From: Cytophagaceae bacterium ABcell3
Lineage (GTDB): Bacteria; Bacteroidota; Bacteroidia; Cytophagales; Cytophagaceae
Length of the DNA: 64,000 nt
Assembly: GCA_030913385.1 (NCBI GenBank)
Contig: CP133159.1
Location: 3,990,584 to 4,054,583, forward strand
Direction of reading: 5' to 3'
A model generated the notes under the pieces. It saw only the letters and a program-made list of their open reading frames with translations, had not been told where the DNA came from and ran no database searches. Both the position numbers and the translations under genes were made by a program. This document shows positions 13,782 to 57,944 of this stretch, one piece after another (the stretch's first letter is position 1; each line of letters opens with the position of its first letter).

Positions 13782-14018
13782 GCCCCTTCAGGGCTAGGCC
13801 TAATCTTAAACCAAAAGCTACAATCATGTCGTCCCGTCGGGACTTTTTGTCTTACTGCACCACTCCAAAAATATCTCTTCATCCATTCTCCATCTGAACT
13901 TTGGAACCTTTAATGGCTGCCAACTTTCAGATGCCAAGGACATATATCAAAGCCCCGAAAGGGGCGATATGATTATAGAACAAACATTTCATTACCGATG
14001 AGCCCTGAAGGGGCGACA
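13782..14018. repeat. Left REP/BIME cluster of the RAYT locus
   Basis: GC-rich short palindromes typical of REP elements: GCCCCTTCAGGGC at 13782-13794; GTCCCGTCGGGAC followed by TTTTTG at 13831-13848; then a composite unit with GCCCC-GAAA-GGGGC at 13952-13965 and GCCCTGAAGGGGC at 14002-14014, joined by GATTATAGAACAAAC. The composite unit recurs on the other side of the transposase gene (14633-14695) and, diverged, at 60,217-60,282. The unit ends 8 nt before the RAYT stop codon. Confidence 0.8.
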
Positions 14019-14021
14019 TAA

Positions 14022-14486
14022 TTACGTACCTACCCATTCAAAAAGATATTTTTCATCATGCTCAATTTCAAACTTCCTTAACATTTCAACATATTCCTCT
14101 TTGAATGTTTTTCTTTTATGATGCTCTTCCTGATTTTTAATATAATTATAAACTTGATTTATATGGGAATGGCTGTACGAAAAAGCCCCATAGCCTTCCT
14201 GCCATTCAAATTTCCCTCTTACAAACTTCTGTTCTTTTATAAATCCAGATGTAATGCTTTTAATATCTCTTACTAAATCAGACAAACGCATTGAAGGTTT
14301 TAACCCTACAAACAAATGAACATGGTCGGACACTCCATTTACTATAATAGATTTCTGTCCTTTCCCTTTAATAATCCCTGACATGTATTTAAAAACATCA
14401 TCACGCCAAGGTTTTAAGAGTAAGCTGTTTCTCCCACGAACAGCAAATACAACTTGAACATAAATCTGAGAAAAAGTTCCAGGCAT
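14022..14486 (-). CDS. REP-associated tyrosine transposase (Y1/HUH family, IS200-like)
   Basis: A 154-residue Y1 transposase-like protein. Seen: start MPGTFSQIYVQVVF, typical of this family; the HUH metal-binding motif in SDHVHLFVGL; the helix containing the candidate catalytic Tyr in NYIKNQEEHH; and KFEWQEGYGAFS, the conserved WQxGYGAFS signature. The usual length (about 150) is matched. An in-frame ATG upstream (14549) would add an unlikely hydrophobic, AT-rich 21 residues, so I chose 14486. Known: RAYT proteins nick and mobilise or maintain REP hairpins rather than moving as classical insertion sequences. Here the gene sits between direct copies of a REP/BIME module, the expected arrangement. 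All key residues appear intact, so it may be active. Confidence 0.88.
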   Translation of the reverse strand: MPGTFSQIYVQVVFAVRGRNSLLLKPWRDDVFKYMSGIIKGKGQKSIIVNGVSDHVHLFVGLKPSMRLSDLVRDIKSITSGFIKEQKFVRGKFEWQEGYGAFSYSHSHINQVYNYIKNQEEHHKRKTFKEEYVEMLRKFEIEHDEKYLFEWVGT

Positions 14487-14632
14487 TTTAAAAAAAATTA
14501 AACAAAAAAAACAATCCCTGTAAAAATAAAGAAGAAAGAAAACATACACAATACACTCACAGTTAACGTATTGCCAAATTACTCTTCAACACAAGAACTA
14601 TATAACTCTTGATGGCAAGGCACATATCCCAA

Positions 14633-14762
14633 GCCCAGAAAGGGCGACATGATTATAGAACAAACATTTTCATTACCGATGAGCCCTGAAGGGGCGACAT
14701 ATAAGATGACACTCTGAAAACAAAACCAACTAATAAAAATCTACATAACGCCCCTTCAGGGC
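14633..14762. repeat. Right REP/BIME cluster of the RAYT locus
   Basis: A direct copy of the left module: GCCC-AGAAA-GGGC at 14633-14645, GCCCTGAAGGGGC at 14683-14695, with the same GATTATAGAACAAAC connector, then GCCCCTTCAGGGC at 14750-14762. The 58-nt stretch 14642-14700 is almost identical to 13961-14018, differing by one T insertion and one or two bases. Confidence 0.8.
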
Positions 14763-15365: not shown

Positions 15366-15613
15366 TTACCCCTAATTTTTTAAGTTCTACAAAGAGCATA
15401 TCCACAGAATCCTCTAGCTCCCAGTTTACAACATGTTACGCTTTCAAACTTAATACACTGATTATCATTAAAAAAATACCCCCCCGAATCTATGCTATTT
15501 TTATTCATGGGAAAAGACTCAAATTTAATTCCATTTTAGCTTACTTCTGCAATAAAAAAGGTAAAAGATGTGAATTACCAGAAATTACTGCCGAAACCGA
15601 AAGCTGTACCTTA
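15366..15613. other. Intergenic region upstream of the first TIR element
   Basis: AT-rich, with no supported gene. Its right end carries a 23-nt direct repeat (15593-15615, GAAACCGAAAGCTGTACC...) that occurs again exactly at 16008-16030, so the segment 15616-16007 is bracketed by direct repeats. Confidence 0.45.
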
Positions 15614-15781
15614 AACCTGGATTATGCATTAGATTTCGTTATGAGGGGCAAAAGAACAAAAAATCAGCGTATTTGGTTTGCAAAGCATAGTGGTTCTATG
15701 GTTAAAAACCAAATGCGGGCGAAGCGTCTGATTTGAAGTTATTTGCCACGCAATAGAAAGTTCTAATGCATATTTCAGGTT
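15614..15781. repeat. TIR element copy A (MITE-like)
   Basis: A 168-bp dispersed element with terminal inverted repeats: head AACCTGGATTATGCATTAGA and tail TCTAATGCATATTTCAGGTT (18 of 20 positions complementary). It is one of four near-identical copies (also 22668-22833, 27557-27726, 35349-35515). It has an inner subterminal dyad TTTGGTTT / AAACCAAA around the middle. There is no coding capacity. Confidence 0.85.
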
Positions 15782-16240
15782 AAAACCGGGCAGCCCTCTC
15801 GCTGTAGCTCGCGTCCTCGCGAGTTACCACTATCCGGAAGGCCTCTGGCCGGTTTACAGGCGGTGTCCTGAAAAACTACCTGTTCAGAAAATTAAAAAGG
15901 CCAACCCAAAGGACTCAAAAAGCTCATGCACATACCAGGTAGCTACTAATTAACCGCCCGGAGGGCTACCGGATAAGCATCACTCGCCAAAGGCAAGCGA
16001 TGGCGTTGAAACCGAAAGCTGTACCTTAAAAACTAGGCAGCCCGTGTCTTGTGTGAGGAATTCGCAGCGGTTACCCCGCAGCCGACGTCAGGAGGCGAGG
16101 AGTAATAGCGGAGAGTCCGCCCCCGGCGGATTGTGCGGCGGTTTTGCGTGGCCGGGGGCACGCCCAAATAATTAAAAACACCCTCTAAGACACTTCGAAA
16201 GGCTGTTTTTTCGTCTTTATCATACACACTTCTGCTGAAT
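15782..16240. other. GC-rich repeat debris, no supported gene
   Basis: Non-coding and GC-rich. It includes an inverted pair GCCCCCGG / CCGGGGGC at 16119-16126 and 16152-16159, the second copy of the 23-nt direct repeat (16008-16030), and several short dyads (CTCGCG, CCGGAAGGCCTCTGGCCGG). A short minus-strand open frame at 16033-16227 is rich in Arg and Pro and looks like a translation of repeat DNA, not a gene. Confidence 0.5.
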
Positions 16241-16251
16241 GTTAAAAATTA

Positions 16252-16274
16252 TTTTGTTATTTAAACTAACAAAA
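16252..16274. promoter_or_regulatory. Operator 1 upstream of the DnaE/DinB cassette
   Basis: A perfect dyad TTTTGTTA-N7-TAACAAAA. It shares the core TTGTTA-N7-TAACAA with operator 2, exactly 44 bp downstream. It is probably a binding site for a dimeric repressor, by analogy with SOS-type control of error-prone polymerases. Confidence 0.65.
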
Positions 16275-16289
16275 CACACCTCCTTTTGG

Positions 16290-16297
16290 TATATTTG
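16290..16297 (+). promoter_or_regulatory. -7 promoter element of the DnaE/DinB cassette
   Basis: TATATTTG is an exact TAnnTTTG match, 20 nt before the dnaE-type ATG, and is directly followed by operator 2. Confidence 0.6.
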
Positions 16298-16316
16298 TTG
16301 TTATTAAAAATAACAA
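16298..16316. promoter_or_regulatory. Operator 2 overlapping the predicted transcription start
   Basis: Dyad TTGTTATT-AAA-AATAACAA, with the same TTGTTA-N7-TAACAA core as operator 1. It begins directly after the -7 element and ends one base before the ATG, so a bound protein would cover the transcription start. Confidence 0.65.
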
Positions 16317-16317
16317 A

Positions 16318-19287
16318 ATGTATCTCAACTGCCATACATATTTCTCGCTCCGCTACGGCACGCTCTCTCCCGAAGAGCTGGTGGCTGAGGCTATCGATAA
16401 GGGCGCAGAGGTACTGGCTATCACGGATATAAACAATACTTCGGCGACATTCGACTTCTTCCGCCTGTGTATAAAAAACGGTATTAAGCCCATTGCGGGC
16501 ATTGAGTTCAGGAATGGCGGTGAGCACTTATATACCGGACTGGCTGTTAACAACAAAGGTTTTGCGGAACTGAACGCGTTCCTCTCGCGGCATAATGCTG
16601 TGGGGCGGCCGCTCCCTCCTATTGCACCGGAATTTAACGATGTGTATATCATCTACCCTTTCGGAAGCCGCGAACCGGAAGTGCTGCGGGAAAATGAATT
16701 TCTTGGGATTAGAATCTCCGAGCTCAACAAGCTGGTGACCATGCAGCAGGGTTCTTTAAGGAGCAAACTGGTAATGTTGCACCCTGTGACTTTCCGCGAC
16801 AAGAAGGGCTTTAACACGCACCGCCTGCTAAGGGCGATTGACAAAAATACGCTGCTAAGCATGCTGCCGCCGTCGGAACAGGCTCCTCAGGACGAGGCAA
16901 TGCTACAGATGGACAAGCTGATGGCTGCTTACGGGCGGTTTCCGTGGATTATACAGAACACGATGAAGCTGGCGGAAAGCTGTTCCATCCTCTTTGACGG
17001 CGAAAGCAAGAACCGCAAAAACCTGACGGGCGACCTGAACGATGACCGCCTGCTGCTGGAAAAGCTGGCACTGGAGGGTTTTGAGCAGCGCTACGGGCGC
17101 TATAACAAGGTGGCAAAGGAAAGACTGGTAAAGGAGCTGGATATTATAAACCGTCTGGGATTTAATGCTTATTTCCTGATTACCTGGGACATTCTGCGCT
17201 ATGCCATAAACCGGAATTTTGCATGGGTGGGACGGGGAAGCGGCGCCAACAGCATTGTGGCTTATTGCCTGCGCATTACGGACGTGGACCCGATAGAACT
17301 GGATTTGTACTTTGAGCGTTTTCTAAACCCCTACCGGAGTTCGCCGCCGGACTTTGACATAGATTTCTCATGGAAGGAACGCGACCAGGTAACGGATTAT
17401 ATATTTAAGCGTTACGGCAATAAGCATACGGCCTTGCTTGCAACGTATAACACCTTTAAAGGTCGTTCGGTCATCCGTGAGCTGGGCAAGGTGTTCGGGC
17501 TGCCAAAACCGGAAATAGACCTGATTGTCTCGCACCGTAACCCTGCCCTGTCGGCTGAGAAGGATGATATAGTAAAGGCTATTTTTAAATACGGGCAAAA
17601 CCTGCAGGACTTCCCCAACCACCTTAGTATTCATGCGGGGGGCGTGCTTATCAGCGAGGAGCCGATTGCCTGCTATACGGCCACTGACCTGCCGCCGAAG
17701 GGTTTTCCGATAACGCACTTCGATATGTTTGTGGCCGAGGATATGGGCTTTTACAAATACGACATCCTCAGCCAGCGGGGACTGGGACATATCCGTGATG
17801 CCGTGGAGCTGGTTCGCAGAAACACGGGAAAGGCGGTAGACCTGAGCATTGAGAATGCCAAAAAGGACGATAAGGTACGGGAACATATTAAGGCGGCTAA
17901 CACCATTGGCTGCTTCTATATAGAGTCGCCGGGGATGCGTATGCTGCTGCGCAAGCTGCATTGTCAGGACTATCTGACAATGGTAGCTGCCAGTTCAATT
18001 ATCCGTCCGGGTGTGGCTCAGTCGGGAATGATGCAGCAATACATAAGCCGGTTCCACAAGCCTGAAACCATACAGTACCTGCACCCAAAACTGGAAGAAC
18101 TGCTTAAGGAGACTTACGGGGTAATGGTATATCAGGAGGATGTAATCAAGGTGGCGCATCACTTTGCAGGCTTTGACCTCGGAGAGGCGGATGTGCTGAG
18201 GCGTGCCATGTCGGGCAAGTACCGCGGACACTCAGGATTTAAGCTCATTCAGGAGAAGTTCTTTACCAAGTGCCGCGAAAAGGGTTATGACGAGGCGCTA
18301 ACCAAAGAGGTGTGGCGGCAGATTGAGAGTTTCGGGGGCTACTCTTTTTCCAAGGCGCATTCGGCAAGCTTTGCGGTGGAAAGCTATCAGAGCCTCTACC
18401 TGAAGGCGCACTATCCGCTTGAGTTCTGCGTATCGGTCATCAACAATTTTGGCGGTTTTTACGGAACGGAGTTTTACATACACGAAGCACGTATGGCCGG
18501 TGCCGATATTCAGGCTCCGTGTGTCAACCACAGCGATGTACTTACGACCCTGCACGGCCGGCAGATTTACATCGGCTTCGGGCTTATCAAGGACTTTGAG
18601 CGTAAGCTGGGGCTGCACATTTCGGCCGAAAGAGACGCAAACGGAGCTTTTAAGAGCATGACGGACTTTATCAAGCGTGTGCCGGTATCGCCGGAACAGT
18701 TGAACATTCTTATCCGTGCGGGCGGACTGCGGTTTACCGGCAAAAGCAAAAAGGTTTTATTGCTGGAATCAGCCCTGTACTTCAGCAAGCAGAAAACCCG
18801 CATGCCGGCGCAGGAGCTCTTTGCTGAGGAAGAACAAGCGCTGAACCTGCCTCCGCTAAGCAGTTTCAGCCATGAGGATGCGTATGACGAGATAGAGCTG
18901 CTGGGTTTTCCGCTGTGCCACCCTTTTGATATGCTTCCAGAGGAACACAAACAGGGAATTGCCGCATCGGAAATGCTGATGCACACCGGAAAAAAAGTTA
19001 CCATGACGGGCTATTTTGTCACAACAAAAGACGTATATACCGTTCATAAGGATATCATGGCTTTTATGCACTTTCTGGACATAAACGGCAAGACTTTTGA
19101 CACCACGCACTTTCCTCCATCACTAAAAAGGTTTCCGCTTCAGGGACGGGGCTTCTACCTGCTGCGGGGAAAAATCGTGGACGAGTTCGGCCACCCAAGC
19201 ATGGAGGTGGAGTATATGGAAAAATTGCCGATGGTGAGAAAAGAGGTTATACACCTCCAAGGTTTTGGAAACCTTGGAGGTGTATAA
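16318..19287 (+). CDS. Short DnaE-type DNA polymerase III alpha subunit (error-prone polymerase-like)
   Basis: A 989-residue C-family DNA polymerase. Seen: an N-terminal PHP domain (about 1-200) in which metal-binding motifs are eroded (LNCHTYFS instead of an HxH start; AITDINNT instead of TDH); the polymerase core with GRGSGANSIVAYCL, PDFDIDF (Asp347 and Asp349 the likely catalytic pair) and YKYDILSQRG (Asp482 the likely third); a helix-hairpin region; and a C-terminal OB fold (about 895-970). It is shorter than replicative Bacteroidota DnaE (usually well above 1100), close to the DnaE2/ImuC class, and lacks a tau-binding tail. With dinB 65 bp downstream it forms a translesion cassette. GC content and codon use are higher than in the neighbours. 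The last 13 residues are encoded by a perfect hairpin. DnaE2 identity is inferred from size and partner only. Confidence 0.85.
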   Translation: MYLNCHTYFSLRYGTLSPEELVAEAIDKGAEVLAITDINNTSATFDFFRLCIKNGIKPIAGIEFRNGGEHLYTGLAVNNKGFAELNAFLSRHNAVGRPLPPIAPEFNDVYIIYPFGSREPEVLRENEFLGIRISELNKLVTMQQGSLRSKLVMLHPVTFRDKKGFNTHRLLRAIDKNTLLSMLPPSEQAPQDEAMLQMDKLMAAYGRFPWIIQNTMKLAESCSILFDGESKNRKNLTGDLNDDRLLLEKLALEGFEQRYGRYNKVAKERLVKELDIINRLGFNAYFLITWDILRYAINRNFAWVGRGSGANSIVAYCLRITDVDPIELDLYFERFLNPYRSSPPDFDIDFSWKERDQVTDYIFKRYGNKHTALLATYNTFKGRSVIRELGKVFGLPKPEIDLIVSHRNPALSAEKDDIVKAIFKYGQNLQDFPNHLSIHAGGVLISEEPIACYTATDLPPKGFPITHFDMFVAEDMGFYKYDILSQRGLGHIRDAVELVRRNTGKAVDLSIENAKKDDKVREHIKAANTIGCFYIESPGMRMLLRKLHCQDYLTMVAASSIIRPGVAQSGMMQQYISRFHKPETIQYLHPKLEELLKETYGVMVYQEDVIKVAHHFAGFDLGEADVLRRAMSGKYRGHSGFKLIQEKFFTKCREKGYDEALTKEVWRQIESFGGYSFSKAHSASFAVESYQSLYLKAHYPLEFCVSVINNFGGFYGTEFYIHEARMAGADIQAPCVNHSDVLTTLHGRQIYIGFGLIKDFERKLGLHISAERDANGAFKSMTDFIKRVPVSPEQLNILIRAGGLRFTGKSKKVLLLESALYFSKQKTRMPAQELFAEEEQALNLPPLSSFSHEDAYDEIELLGFPLCHPFDMLPEEHKQGIAASEMLMHTGKKVTMTGYFVTTKDVYTVHKDIMAFMHFLDINGKTFDTTHFPPSLKRFPLQGRGFYLLRGKIVDEFGHPSMEVEYMEKLPMVRKEVIHLQGFGNLGGV

Positions 19288-19352: not shown

Positions 19353-20495
19353 ATGCAGCCAAACGACCGGAATATTGTTCATATGGATTTGGATTCGTTT
19401 TTTGTTTCGGTGGAATGCCTGGAACATAGCGAACTAAAAGGAAAACCACTGATTATCGGGGGGCATAGCGACCGTGGCGTGGTGGCCAGCTGCAGCTATG
19501 AGGCGCGCAGGTTTGGTGTACACTCAGCCATGCCTTCTAAAATGGCGCGCAAACTTTGTCCGCAGGCTATATGGCTCCATGGCGACATGGAAAAGTACAG
19601 CAGGTACTCACGGCTTGTCACGGACATTATCGCAGACAAAGCACCGGTGTTTGAAAAAGCATCGATAGATGAATTTTATCTGGATGTATCAGGTATGGAC
19701 AAATTTTTCGGATGCTATAAATGGACTGGAGAACTGAAGCAGCTTATCGTCAAAGAAAGCGGACTGCCTATTTCCTTTGGTCTGTCGCTGAATAAGATGG
19801 TATCGAAAGTAGCTACCGGCGAATCAAAACCTGACGGTCAGCTGCAGATACCCTTCGGCACGGAAAAGGCCTTTCTCGCCCCTATGCCCATAAAGAAAAT
19901 ACCCATGCTCGGTCCCAAAACGGCGGAGCACCTCAACAGCCTTGGTGTGACGGATGTGGCCACGCTGGCAGCCATGCCTGTAAAGGTATTGCAATCGCTA
20001 TATGGCAAGAACGGCATTGTACTCTGGGAACGCGCCAATGCCATCGACGACACGCCTGTAACGCCTTATACGGAACGAAAGTCTATATCAAACGAAACGA
20101 CTTTTGAAACAGATACCATAGACGTAAAAATGATTCAGAATACCATCATCAAAATGGTGGAAGGGCTGGCCTGGAGCCTCCGTCGCGAAAACTGGCTTAC
20201 CGGATGCGTGACCATAAAAATCAAATACGCCAATTTCGATACCCACACCCGCCAGATGAGCATTCCTTACACATCTATGGACGACATACTTATCAACACG
20301 GCCAAAGCGCTGTTTGCGCAGCTTCACAGCCGCCGTATGCTTATCCGTCTGATAGGTGTGCGCTTCAGTCACCTGGTACATGGCAGTTACCAGATAAGCC
20401 TGTTTGACGACCCTGTCAAAAAAATAGGTTTTTACGAAGCACTGGACAAAATCAGAAACAAATACGGAGATGACAGCGTGGGACGGGCTGTTTAG
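19353..20495 (+). CDS. dinB: DNA polymerase IV (Y-family, DinB)
   Basis: A 380-residue translesion polymerase. Seen: HMDLDSFF near the N-terminus (Asp12), SIDEFYLDVSGM with Asp106-Glu107 as catalytic metal ligands, VASCSYEARRFGV and SAMPSKMARKLCP of the palm/finger region, a helix-hairpin-helix thumb (IPMLGPKTAEHLNSLG), a little-finger domain, and the C-terminal beta-clamp motif QISLF (347-351). The length is usual. It is 65 bp downstream of the DnaE-type gene on the same strand with two palindromes in between; the pair probably copies past damaged bases together. No LexA-like or ImuA-like gene is adjacent. GC is above the neighbours', as in dnaE. Confidence 0.93.
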   Translation: MQPNDRNIVHMDLDSFFVSVECLEHSELKGKPLIIGGHSDRGVVASCSYEARRFGVHSAMPSKMARKLCPQAIWLHGDMEKYSRYSRLVTDIIADKAPVFEKASIDEFYLDVSGMDKFFGCYKWTGELKQLIVKESGLPISFGLSLNKMVSKVATGESKPDGQLQIPFGTEKAFLAPMPIKKIPMLGPKTAEHLNSLGVTDVATLAAMPVKVLQSLYGKNGIVLWERANAIDDTPVTPYTERKSISNETTFETDTIDVKMIQNTIIKMVEGLAWSLRRENWLTGCVTIKIKYANFDTHTRQMSIPYTSMDDILINTAKALFAQLHSRRMLIRLIGVRFSHLVHGSYQISLFDDPVKKIGFYEALDKIRNKYGDDSVGRAV

Positions 20496-51510: not shown

Positions 51511-51702
51511 AACATTATATAAAACGAGCGCAAATATACATCCCCATTAGTTAGAGAATTTAAAAACGCTCAAGTTATATTTTTATTTCTTTGTTTTTAA
51601 CCTGAATTATGCGGTAGATTTCGTCCCCGTGAATCAACCTATACCGCTTACCCCAAACAGACCCCGCAACAGGTGCGGGGACACAGCTATCCATTACCCA
51701 AC
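51511..51702. other. Intergenic region entering the tandem array
   Basis: It contains a decayed TIR-element head (AACCTGAATTATGCGGTAGA at 51599-51618) and a strong hairpin CCCCGCA-N5-TGCGGGG at 51662-51680, then CACGTCATTGCGAGG, where the first array unit begins. Confidence 0.55.
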
Positions 51703-54700
51703 CACGTCATTGCGAGGAGGAACGACGAAGCAATCTTATCGTCAGGTCTGGTATTAATACATTATGATTGTAGTGCCGATTTTTTATCGGCATGGCTAAG
51801 GTATAAAAGTAGAGAAAGAGCCATAGGCCACACTAGCTCAATAGGTGAATTAAAAAATAATTATTGATTTGTCATAACCTCTAAAAAGCAACCTACACCG
51901 CTTACCCCAACCAGATTGCCGCGGCTTTGTTTCATAAGAAACTTAAGCCTTAAAGTTTAAAACCAAGAACTTTAACAACCACTACCTCGTGCCTCGCAAT
52001 GACGGTTAAATATTGGTTTTCTGCTAACTATAATTCCCCTCCCGTAGTCAATCTTTTAACCCAACTAACCCATTACCCCGTCACGTCTTTGCGAGGAGGG
52101 ACGACGAAGCAATCTAATCGTCAGGTCTGGTATTGATACATTATGATTGTAGTGCCGATTTTTTATCGGCATGGCTAAGTTATGAGTAAAACACAGTCAT
52201 TAAAATCAACAGCCAAAATCAGCGATAACCTCCAAACTGGTAAGAGCCGAAAAGTAGACAAAAAGGATAAGTTAATAATCAGCAGCCCGGTAGCTACTAA
52301 GAGCGGGCGGGGACCCTATGGCTGGCGTGGGCATATTGCGGCTTGTGGGGTGCCGGATTTTTAAAAATGCCGCCATTAAGAACTGCCTTTGACAGTGAAT
52401 CGTCAGTTAAGGCATTTTTCTGGCAGGGAGGGATTGTGCGTTTAGTGCGAGGCAATATGCCTTCAGCCATAGTGTCTTTTTTTGGTTACCTTTTTTGGAC
52501 AAGCAAAAAAGGTAAGAAAAATCGGAGAATGAACCATAGGTTACGTTAGCCCAATGGGTGAATTAAAGGATAATTATTGATTTGTCAGAACCCCTAAAAA
52601 CCAACCTACACCGCTTACCCTAACCAGATTGCCTCGGCATTTTTTCATAGAAGATAAAGCCTTAAAACTTCACCTCAAGAACTTTAACAACCACTACCTC
52701 GCGCCTCGCAATGACGGTTAAGTTTTGGTTTTCTGCTATTTAGAAATCATTATTTAGTATAATCAATCTCCATAGTCAACATATAAACCCATTTCCCAAC
52801 CACGTCATTGCGAGGAGGTACGACGAAGCAATCTCATCGTCAGGTCTGGTATTGATACATTATGATTGTAGTGCCGATTTTTTATCGGCATGGCTAAGTT
52901 ATGAGTAAAACACAGTCATTAAAATCAACAGCCAAAATCAGCGATAACCTCCAAACTGGTAAGAGCCGAAAAGTAGACAAAAAGGATAAGTTAATAATCA
53001 GCAGCCCGGTAGCTACTAAGAGCGGGCGGGGACCCTATGGCTGGCGTGGGCATATTGCGGCTTGTGGGGTGCCGGATTTTTAAAAATGCCGCCATTAAGA
53101 ACTGCCTTTGACAGTGAATCGTCAGTTAAGGCATTTTTCTGGCAGGGAGGGATTGTGCGTTTAGTGCGAGGCAATATGCCTTCAGCCATAGTGTCTTTTT
53201 TTGGTTACCTTTTTTGGACAAGCAAAAAAGGTAAGAAAAATCGGAGAATGAACCATAGGTTACGTTAGCCCAATGGGTGAATTAAAGGATAATTATTGAT
53301 TTGTCAGAACCCCTAAAAAGCAACCTACACCGCTTACTCCAAACAGATTGCCGCGGCTTTGTTTCATAAGAAACTTAAGCCTTAAAGTTTAAAACCAAGA
53401 ACTTTAACAACCACTACCTCGTGCCTCGCAATGACGGTTAAATATTGGTTTTCTGCTAACTATAATTCCCCTCCCGTAGTCAATCTTTTAACCCAACTAA
53501 CCCATTACCCCGTCACGTCTTTGCGAGGAGGGACGACGAAGCAATCTAATCGTCAGGTCTGGTATTGATACATTATGATTGTAGTGCCGATTTTTTATCG
53601 GCATGGCTAAGTTATGAGTAAAACACAGTCATTAAAATCAACAGCCAAAATCAGCGATAACCTCCAAACTGGTAAGAGCCGAAAAGTAGACAAAAAGGAT
53701 AAGTTAATAATCAGCAGCCCGGTAGCTACTAAGAGCGGGCGGGGACCCTATGGCTGGCGTGGGCATATTGCGGCTTGTGGGGTGCCGGATTTTTAAAAAT
53801 GCCGCCATTAAGAACTGCCTTTGACAGTGAATCGTCAGTTAAGGCATTTTTCTGGCAGGGAGGGATTGTGCGTTTAGTGCGAGGCAATATGCCTTCAGCC
53901 ATAGTGTCTTTTTTTGGTTACCTTTTTTGGACAAGCAAAAAAGGTAAGAAAAATCGGAGAATGAACCATAGGTTACGTTAGCCCAATGGGTGAATTAAAG
54001 GATAATTATTGATTTGTCAGAACCCCTAAAAAGCAACCTACACCGCTTACTCCAAACAGATTGCCGCGGCTTTGTTTCATAAGAAACTTAAGCCTTAAAG
54101 TTTAAAACCAAGAACTTTAACAACCACTACCTCGTGCCTCGCAATGACGGTTAAATATTGGTTTTCTGCTAACTATAATTCCCCTCCCGTAGTCAATCTT
54201 TTAACCCAACTAACCCATTACCCCGTCACGTCTTTGCGAGGAGGGACGACGAAGCAATCTAATCGTCAGGTCTGGTATTGATACATTATGATTGTAGTGC
54301 CGATTTTTTATCGGCATGGCTAAGTTATGAGTAAAACACAGTCATTAAAATCAACAGCCAAAATCAGCGATAACCTCCAAACTGGTAAGAGCCGAAAAGT
54401 AGACAAAAAGGATAAGTTAATAATCAGCAGCCCGGTAGCTACTAAGAGCGGGCGGGGACCCTATGGCTGGCGTGGGCATATTGCGGCTTGTGGGGTGCCG
54501 GATTTTTAAAAATGCCGCCATTAAGAACTGCCTTTGACAGTGAATCGTCAGTTAAGGCATTTTTCTGGCAGGGAGGGATTGTGCGTTTAGTGCGAGGCAA
54601 TATGCCTTCAGCCATAGTGTCTTTTTTTGGTTACCTTTTTTGGACAAGCAAAAAAGGTAAGAAAAATCGGAGAATGAACCATAGGTTACGTTAGCCCAAT

Positions 54701-56440
54701 GGGTGAATTAAAGGATAATTATTGATTTGTCAGAACCCCTAAAAACCAACCTACACCACTCACCCCAAACAGATTGCCGCGGCATTTTTTCATAAGAAGA
54801 TAAAGCCTTAAAGTTTCACCTCAAGAACTTTAACAACCACTACCTCGCGCCTCGCAATGACGGTTAAGTTTTGGTTTTCTGCTATTTAGAAATCATTATT
54901 TAGTATAATCAATCTCCGTAGTCAACATATAAACCCAATAAACCCATTTCCCAACCACGTCTTTGCGAGGAGGAACGACGAAGCAATCTAATCGTCAGGT
55001 CTGGTATTGATACATTATGATTGTAGTGCCGATTTTTTATCGGCATGGCTAAGGTATAAAAGTAGAGAAAGAGCCATAGGCCACACTAGCTCAATAGGTG
55101 AATTAAAAAATAATTATTGATTTGTCATAACCTCTAAAAAGCAACCTACACCGCTTACCCCAACCAGATTGCCGCGGCTTTGTTTCATAAGAAACTTAAG
55201 CCTTAAAGTTTAAAACCAAGAACTTTAACAACCACTACCTCGTGCCTCGCAATGACGCTTTAATTCTGTTTTTTCTGCTAATTACATCCCTTTAGTCAGT
55301 ACAACAGAAATCTCCGTAGCCAATCTTTTAAACCAACTAACCCATTTCCCAACCACGTCATTGCGAGGAGGAACGACGAAGCAATCTTATCGTCAGGTCT
55401 GGTATTAATACATTATGATTGTAGTGCCGATTTTTTATCGGCATGGCTAAGGTATAAAAGTAGAGAAAGAGCCATAGGCCACACTAGCTCAATAGGTGAA
55501 TTAAAAAATAATTATTGATTTGTCATAACCTCTAAAAAGCAACCTACACCGCTTACCCCAACCAGATTGCCGCGGCTTTGTTTCATAAGAAACTTAAGCC
55601 TTAAAGTTTAAAACCAAGAACTTTAACAACCACTACCTCGTGCCTCGCAATGACGGTTAAATATTGGTTTTCTGCTAACTATAATTCCCCTCCCGTAGTC
55701 AATCTTTTAACCCAACTAACCCATTACCCCGTCACGTCTTTGCGAGGAGGGACGACGAAGCAATCTAATCGTCAGGTCTGGTATTGATACATTATGATTG
55801 TAGTGCCGATTTTTTATCGGCATGGCTAAGTTATGAGTAAAACACAGTCATTAAAATCAACAGCCAAAATCAGCGATAACCTCCAAACTGGTAAGAGCCG
55901 AAAAGTAGACAAAAAGGATAAGTTAATAATCAGCAGCCCGGTAGCTACTAAGAGCGGGCGGGGACCCTATGGCTGGCGTGGGCATATTGCGGCTTGTGGG
56001 GTGCCGGATTTTTAAAAATGCCGCCATTAAGAACTGCCTTTGACAGTGAATCGTCAGTTAAGGCATTTTTCTGGCAGGGAGGGATTGTGCGTTTAGTGCG
56101 AGGCAATATGCCTTCAGCCATAGTGTCTTTTTTTGGTTACCTTTTTTGGACAAGCAAAAAAGGTAAGAAAAATCGGAGAATGAACCATAGGTTACGTTAG
56201 CCCAATGGGTGAATTAAAGGATAATTATTGACTTGTCAGAACCCCTAAAAACCAACCTACACCACTCACCCCAAACAGATTGCCGCGGCATTATTTCATA
56301 AGAAACTTAGGCCTTAAAGTTTAAACCCAAGAACTTTAACAACCACTATCTCGTGCCTCGCAATGACGGCTATATCCTAGGTTCTGCCAACTACAATCCT
56401 TAATATAACAAAAACCCTCCGTAGGATCTCAATCCAAACT
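51703..56440. repeat. Eight-unit tandem array of a MITE-like element
   Basis: Units begin (CACGTCNTTGCGAGG) at 51703, 52082, 52801, 53514, 54227, 54956, 55354 and 55733; the last ends about 56,440. Each begins CGTCATTGCGAGG (or CGTCTTTGCGAGG) and near its end carries CCTCGCAATGACG, the inverted complement. All carry a hairpin GCCGAT-TTTTT-ATCGGC about 70 nt from the start. Long units (52082, 52801, 53514, 54227, 55733; 713-729 bp) contain a middle segment absent from short units (51703, 54956, 55354; 379-398 bp), i.e. order S-L-L-L-L-S-S-L. Long middles are essentially identical, including a 10-bp hairpin ACCTTTTTTG / CAAAAAAGGT. Each long unit also contains two short overlapping open frames (60 and 68 codons; for example 52182-52364 and 52343-52549) that I regard as non-coding. 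Confidence 0.9.
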
Positions 56441-56459
56441 CCGGCTGGTGCGGGCATGT

Positions 56460-57944
56460 CTACATTTCCAATACCTTAAACTCCACACGCCTATTTTTGG
56501 CTCGGTTTTCTTCACTGTCGTTTTTAACAGCGGGCTTATGCTTGCCGTAACCTTTTGGTACTAACCGTTCCTGACTGATACCACTGTCTTTCAGATAATC
56601 CACAACCGACTCGGCCCGCGACTGGGATAGTTTTTTATTGTATTCATCGCTCCCCCGGTCGTCTGTATGGGCAGATATTTCAAGTACCAGGTCAGGGTTC
56701 TTGTTCATTAACCGCACAACCCGCTTAAGCTCCGCAAATGACTCCTTGCTTAAAGAAGCTGCATCATGATCAAAAAGAATATTATTGAGCCTAAAAGATG
56801 CATCCTTTTTTAATGGCACAAGGGCAATCTCCTGCCTTTCAGCATACACACTTGTGTCTGTCAAATCCAGCCCTTGCGAATCAAAGGCATAGCCTTTCGC
56901 ATTGGCGGAAAACTCGTAAACCTCATTGTCTTTCAGAAAAGCTTTGAAAGTACCCGTTTCAGCATCACTTTCAATCGTATAAACCATATCAGGATCATTC
57001 TTCGCTACAATTTTTACTTGCGCCTGAAGCGGTTCGCCTGTGTCTGCGCATTTCACCAAACCTCTTATCCCTTTCACCTCGTCAGGACGGAAAGCTTCAG
57101 GAATGGGCAAGAAGAAAATACTTTCTTTGTTGTTCGTAGAAGTCGAGGAAAAGTAAATAACATCGCCAGAGGCAGGCACCGTTACCAGTTCGTCATCTTT
57201 TGGAGTATTCATAAAAGCCATAGGCTCTGGTGTTGACCATTTTCCATTGTCGTACCGGGTCATGTACAAGTTGAACCCAGCTTGGTTAACTTCACGGATT
57301 GAAGAAAAAACCAACGTACGTCCATCTGCCATAATTCTAGGATAGGCCTCGCAACCACTATTGACAGGCGACGGCAAAGGTCTTGGTTTTTCAAATTCCC
57401 CATCAAGTTTTTCGGACACGTAAATATCGCAACAATGCTGCCCCATAGGCCCCCGTTTTCCATTTGGCCTCATAAAATAGAGCCTTTTACCGTCAGGGGA
57501 CAAAGAGGGAAAACCTTCGTAGGACGTACTGTTTAAAGGCTTACCGGGGTTGATAGGCTCCGACCATTCTCCATCTTCCAAATGGCTGTACCAAATGTCT
57601 ATTCCCCCTACCCCGCCTTTGATACCAGCGGTAAAAAACAGGGTCGTACCATCATAGGTCAAAAAAGGGCCTCCCAGAAATTCTTTTTCGCCTATAGACT
57701 TGTTTATCGCATCCAAGGCCTCCGGCTCTGACCAGTCTCCCGACTCCGTTTTTCGGGAAGCATACAAGGCCCAACGGCCATCCCGGTCTGACTCAAATAT
57801 CAGCAAATTGCCATCAGCCGAAATGGTAGGTGCAAATTCCGCAAAATAAGGCGTATTAACAGGGGCGCCTAATGATTGCATTTCTTGTGCATTAAGAACT
57901 GTAGAGTAGACAAAAAGAATAGTAAAGGCGAAAATGTATCTCAT
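56460..57944 (-). CDS. PD40/OmpA outer-membrane protein
   Basis: A 494-residue exported protein. Seen: a signal peptide (about 1-19, ending NAQ); PD40 propeller repeats (about 30-300) with TISADGNLLIFESDRDGRWALYAS, LTYDGTTLFFTAGIKGG, SLSPDGKRLYFMRPNG and IMADGRTLVFSS; a carboxypeptidase-regulatory-like insert; and an OmpA domain (about 385-494) with ILFDHDAASLS, ISAHTDDRGSDEYNKKLSQSRAESVVDYL and NRAKNRRVEF. Similar to the 9728-11812 protein but without TPRs. No PorP-like gene is adjacent. Its 3' end adjoins the tandem array (20 nt). Confidence 0.88.
   Translation of the reverse strand: MRYIFAFTILFVYSTVLNAQEMQSLGAPVNTPYFAEFAPTISADGNLLIFESDRDGRWALYASRKTESGDWSEPEALDAINKSIGEKEFLGGPFLTYDGTTLFFTAGIKGGVGGIDIWYSHLEDGEWSEPINPGKPLNSTSYEGFPSLSPDGKRLYFMRPNGKRGPMGQHCCDIYVSEKLDGEFEKPRPLPSPVNSGCEAYPRIMADGRTLVFSSIREVNQAGFNLYMTRYDNGKWSTPEPMAFMNTPKDDELVTVPASGDVIYFSSTSTNNKESIFFLPIPEAFRPDEVKGIRGLVKCADTGEPLQAQVKIVAKNDPDMVYTIESDAETGTFKAFLKDNEVYEFSANAKGYAFDSQGLDLTDTSVYAERQEIALVPLKKDASFRLNNILFDHDAASLSKESFAELKRVVRLMNKNPDLVLEISAHTDDRGSDEYNKKLSQSRAESVVDYLKDSGISQERLVPKGYGKHKPAVKNDSEENRAKNRRVEFKVLEM

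Follow-up and report, generated by a model that had tools for sequence, protein, structure and literature searches.

The stretch of DNA analyzed here (64,000 nucleotides; the window) corresponds to C1:3990584-4054583 of a genome that consists of one 5.115 Mb contig, and it contains a cassette of two DNA polymerase genes on the + strand. The first gene (16318 to 19287) encodes a 989-residue DnaE-like C-family polymerase with PHP, pol3_alpha, finger and HHH_6 domains. Its orthologues are 46-67% identical and align from the same methionine, which supports the dnaE start codon. The second gene (19353 to 20495) encodes a 380-residue DinB of the Pol IV type, which contains the HMDLDSFF and SIDEF motifs and is the only Y-family polymerase in the genome. 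The gap between the two genes is 65 bp and contains no box, and therefore dnaE and dinB probably form one operon.

The promoter region of dnaE has the features that the first-pass annotation ascribed to it: two identical TTGTTA-N7-TAACAA dyads, a TAnnTTTG element that abuts the second dyad, and a second dyad that stops one base short of the ATG. The distal site, predicted operator 1 (16254 to 16272; no strand assigned), is an exact dyad reading TTGTTA-TTTAAAC-TAACAA, and its core starts at -61 with respect to the dnaE ATG. The proximal site, predicted operator 2 (16298 to 16316; no strand assigned), is also exact, reads TTGTTA-TTAAAAA-TAACAA and has its core start at -17. The start-to-start distance is 44 bp, and a single base separates the end of operator 2 from the ATG at 16318. 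Immediately before operator 2, TATATTTG (16290 to 16297, + strand) matches the Bacteroidota -7 promoter element TAnnTTTG; this is a consensus match only, and no clear TTG -33 element was found at the usual distance before it. Operator 2 likely covers both the transcription start and the leader.

Exact copies of the dyad occur three times in the genome, compared to once for a reversed control pattern, and therefore we do not regard the sites as chance matches. Two of the copies form the 44-bp pair at the cassette. The third (C1:3967782-3967800) lies at a distance of 39 kb, immediately next to the ATG of the gene for P0001, the only protein in the genome with a Peptidase_S24 match. The repressor gene thus carries exactly the same 12-base dyad as the polymerase operon, with one box in its promoter and two in that of dnaE. 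Assuming 1-3 chance sites per genome, a site would fall within the 150 bp preceding the sole S24 gene with a probability of approximately 3e-5 to 9e-5; the way in which the pattern was discovered does not affect this test. The first-pass annotation had counted the lack of a second genomic site near a repair or lexA-like gene as an argument against SOS control; such a site exists, because the third dyad adjoins a lexA-like gene. Its expectation of sites at recA and other repair genes was not borne out. The recA gene (C1:2096809-2097597) has no box of either type, and sites with at most one mismatch number 42 genome-wide, compared to 36 for the reversed control. A wider regulon built from these single-mismatch sites was rejected, as they are mostly intragenic and none lies beside a recognized repair gene. 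With only three exact sites and a boxless recA, the predicted regulon is therefore minimal, consisting of the repressor and dnaE-dinB.

P0001 (250 residues; C1:3967032-3967781) has an N-terminal phage-repressor HTH domain (PF01381; HTH_3, 45.4 bits) and a C-terminal Peptidase_S24 domain (31.7 bits), both over the cut-off in profile searches. At the N terminus, the only matches were to HTH_3-type domains, with no winged-helix LexA DNA-binding domain, and P0001 therefore does not fit canonical LexA. The A103-G104 scissile bond and the catalytic residues S140 and K179 are invariant across 26 homologues. An AlphaFold2 model of P0001 gave a pLDDT of 77 and a pTM of 0.49, and its domain arrangement is therefore not reliable. 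The recognition helix (residues 29-37) lies within the confidently modelled N-terminal domain, and an extra C-terminal helix, as expected of Bacteroidetes non-canonical LexA, is predicted at 230-247. The best Foldseek matches of P0001 include the lambda-186 hybrid repressor, lambda CI and LexA, and some of the matched LexA/CI structures are bound to RecA filaments. In a tree of C-terminal regions, P0001 occupies a long branch beside members of the same family, with no resolved sister. In the features that were checked, P0001 agrees with the Bacteroidetes non-canonical LexA family (S24/COG2932 type). A phage origin of the close repressor was also considered and rejected: viral contigs yielded one weak partial match, and the neighbors of the P0001 locus look like ordinary chromosomal genes rather than a prophage.

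Across 98 relatives the dyad pattern alone occurs at chance-level frequency, and therefore only gene-linked sites were used in comparisons. Among 390 genomes of the order, the tandem dyad pair was found in this genome and in one apparent coincidence with a TTAA-type repeat. Orthologous dnaE promoters from the same family and from family f7 have CTAA-N5-TTAG, the published SOS box, or a one-off version of it at -57 to -60, and the same box or a one-off or decayed copy at -17 to -19. Relatives may have the box at either or both of these positions, and many have a single box. The cores in this genome, at -61 and -17, occupy the relatives' CTAA-N5-TTAG positions, indicating that the promoter layout has been kept and the box changed. 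The change from the relatives' box falls at +/-6 (C to T) and +/-3, and TTA-N7-TAA has the same pitch as CTA-N7-TAG. An alternative is that the dyads work at the RNA level, as leader hairpins or attenuators, instead of as operators. Site 2 abuts the start codon and is probably in the transcribed leader, as that explanation would have it. However, site 1 precedes the promoter-like element, and the arms, of only 6 bp each, are AT-rich. The third copy likewise stands directly before a repressor start codon, and in relatives the same positions are occupied by a dyad of another sequence, in agreement with the published repressor box. We consider an RNA function highly improbable.

The SOS box of Bacteroidota had been called poorly defined when the dyads were first noticed, a premise that is outdated because EMSA and RT-qPCR work in 2021 established two types of box plus one divergent box (Sanchez-Osuna; PMC8565304). 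The system described here is a variant of the known one (Sanchez-Osuna 2021, PMC8565304) and not the first view of a Bacteroidota SOS box. In the 2021 survey, Cytophagaceae regulators were not assignable to either box group (PMC8565304). P0001 resembles the CTAA-N5-TTAG regulators (PMC8565304) in being an HTH_3+S24 repressor with the conserved Ala-Gly bond and Ser/Lys residues, in having boxes before its own gene and error-prone polymerases, and in the 3-N7-3 core pitch and equal box positions in orthologous dnaE promoters. In contrast to those systems, +/-6 is T/A here rather than C/G, +/-3 is not A/T, and only three sites are present, none of them at recA. The sites of P0001 do not fit CTAA-N5-TTAG: the six half-sites of the three boxes all read TTGTTA(T/G), and therefore we did not place P0001 in that subgroup. 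No CTAA-N5-TTAG pair from this genome was found among the pairs listed. The recognition helices differ as well, with GRPLIGQLE in P0001 and KRSLxGAYE in the relatives, the changes falling at 28, 30, 34, 35 and 37. Among homologues with KRSLxGAYE-type helices, 49 of 56 carry CTA-N7-TAG in the 600 bp upstream of the repressor gene, compared to 6 of 54 among those with other helices. Because the P0001 helix is unlike those of both CTAA-type and TTAC-type regulators, its specificity is not readable from the helix.

A second point of comparison is the S24 regulator of Elizabethkingia anophelis, which binds TTAC-AAATT-GTAA by EMSA; its gene and the polymerase gene opposite are induced by mitomycin C (PMC8565304). 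The two systems share a TTA-N7-TAA core and control, here predicted, of the regulator's own gene and an error-prone polymerase. Repressor and polymerase genes are divergent neighbors in E. anophelis, whereas in this genome 39 kb separates them, dnaE precedes dinB in the operon and two boxes stand before the polymerase gene; at +/-3, the sites have T or G here and C/G there. Besides P0001, four homologues among approximately 57 with other helices have an exact TTGTTA-N7-TAACAA within 150 bp of their start. All four of these genomes (three genera; families f24, f25 and f26) have the dyad in the region that separates divergent S24 and dinB-dnaE genes. The dyad of one genome (G369), TTGTTACAAATTGTAACAA, contains the E. 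anophelis operator TTAC-AAATT-GTAA letter for letter inside TTGTTA-N7-TAACAA. Another genome (G419, L247:6576-6594) has TTGCTA-N7-TAGCAA in its divergent S24/dinB-dnaE region, a sequence that, by its letters, is an intermediate between the CTAA and TTGTTA boxes. HdiR of Streptococcaceae and UmuDAb of Acinetobacter, compared from the literature only, are also S24 regulators that control mainly error-prone polymerases in minimal SOS regulons, but they differ in origin and operators.

Operator shape alone cannot name the binder, and three weak HTH homologues of P0001 are encoded at C1:4735901, C1:4723093 and C1:815515. The dyads could accordingly be bound by another HTH_3/XRE regulator that lacks an S24 domain, in which case the cassette would not be under damage control. 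We find this unlikely, however, given that the S24 gene itself carries the third exact site, that three other families also have this dyad linking S24 with dinB-dnaE genes, and that homologous positions in relatives hold the published SOS box.

Together, these results suggest that the dyads are SOS operators bound by P0001 and opened by RecA-stimulated self-cleavage, within a regulon made up of the repressor and mutagenic polymerases. We put the probability of this reading at roughly 0.83. Because the only other exact copy fronts the sole LexA-like repressor gene, the dyads most likely represent the known Bacteroidota SOS switch in a rewired form. The original proposal, that the dyads control the polymerase cassette as operators in an SOS-type S24-repressor system, thus gains sequence evidence from the third copy at the S24 gene and from the boxes in orthologous promoters. 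Counterpoints to the SOS-operator reading are the lack of a recA box and of a -33 element, a P0001 helix unlike the published types, the long branch of P0001 in the C-terminal tree, and the difference at +/-3 from the E. anophelis dyad. By analogy with the regulator family (PMC8565304), from which binding, cleavage and induction are predicted, a P0001 dimer would occupy each dyad. The dimer at operator 2 would cover the transcription start and leader beside the -7 element, and the dimer at operator 1, approximately four turns upstream, would perhaps cooperate with it. P0001 would also repress its own gene through the third box at its ATG, thereby limiting its own synthesis. Upon DNA damage, RecA filaments would stimulate self-cleavage of P0001 at Ala103-Gly104 by Ser140/Lys179, and loss of the repressor would open both the dnaE-dinB mutagenesis operon and the repressor gene.

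The locus provides a matched repressor, its own promoter and a target promoter, probably from a family that the 2021 survey left outside both box groups. With the published box retained at these positions in relatives, a change in specificity becomes amenable to testing with a single protein and a single DNA fragment. Damage control appears to be limited to mutagenic polymerases, without recA. We tentatively propose, at slightly less than even odds, that specificity changed jointly in the repressor and in all of its operators, with C to T at +/-6 and a new helix, and that the regulon shrank to the repressor and mutagenic polymerases, leaving recA outside SOS control. Since S24-dinB-dnaE modules of other families use this dyad although their helices differ, convergence of several helices on a single operator is conceivable.

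The first-pass annotation further proposed that the 44-bp spacing puts both dyads on the same DNA face for cooperative repression. With 10.5 bp per turn, this distance amounts to 4.19 turns, or approximately 70 degrees from perfect phase. Tandem box spacings before S24 and dnaE genes of relatives lean to whole turns (Rayleigh p = 0.0008 at genus level and 0.011 at family level). Among the pairs listed in a genome-wide set, AT-rich CTAA-N5-TTAG tandem pairs gave p = 0.011 for all spacings and p = 0.001 for spacings of at least 20 bp, the AT-rich filter and 20-bp cut having been chosen post hoc and a few GC-richer pairs removed by hand; unfiltered pairs from the same set showed no significant helical phasing (p = 0.27). 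Helical phasing of tandem boxes is therefore only suggestive, also in view of the near-helical periodicity that AT-rich DNA may have of its own. Same-face cooperativity is plausible, with support that is likewise only suggestive. A stronger form of the SOS reading would make the two dyads a composite element in which same-face cooperativity between two dimers is essential, as for lambda CI. The distance of 4.2 turns, the near-whole-turn spacings of relatives, the AT-rich pairs and the CI-type N-terminal domain of P0001 are in its favor; against it stand the post hoc choices and the unfiltered result, the possible intrinsic periodicity, the many single-boxed relatives and the single box at the repressor's own gene here. 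This refinement seems to us possible but rather doubtful.

The window also contains several repeats. Upstream of the cassette, a GC-rich stretch includes a 23-nt exact direct repeat, GAAACCGAAAGCTGTACCTTAAA, at 15593-15615 and 16008-16030. A 175-residue open reading frame on the - strand (14022-14549) resembles, by eye, IS200/REP-associated tyrosine transposases. It is flanked by repeats at 13941-14020 and 14621-14701, with 34- and 49-nt direct repeats and inverted repeats containing AGCCCTGAAGGGGCG, and together these elements are possibly a REP-like unit adjoining the cassette. Further downstream, 51548-57637 contains long repeats in which TTGTCAGAACCCCTAAAAA recurs approximately 713 bp apart, including an array at 54670-55834 with three copies of a 398-bp unit.
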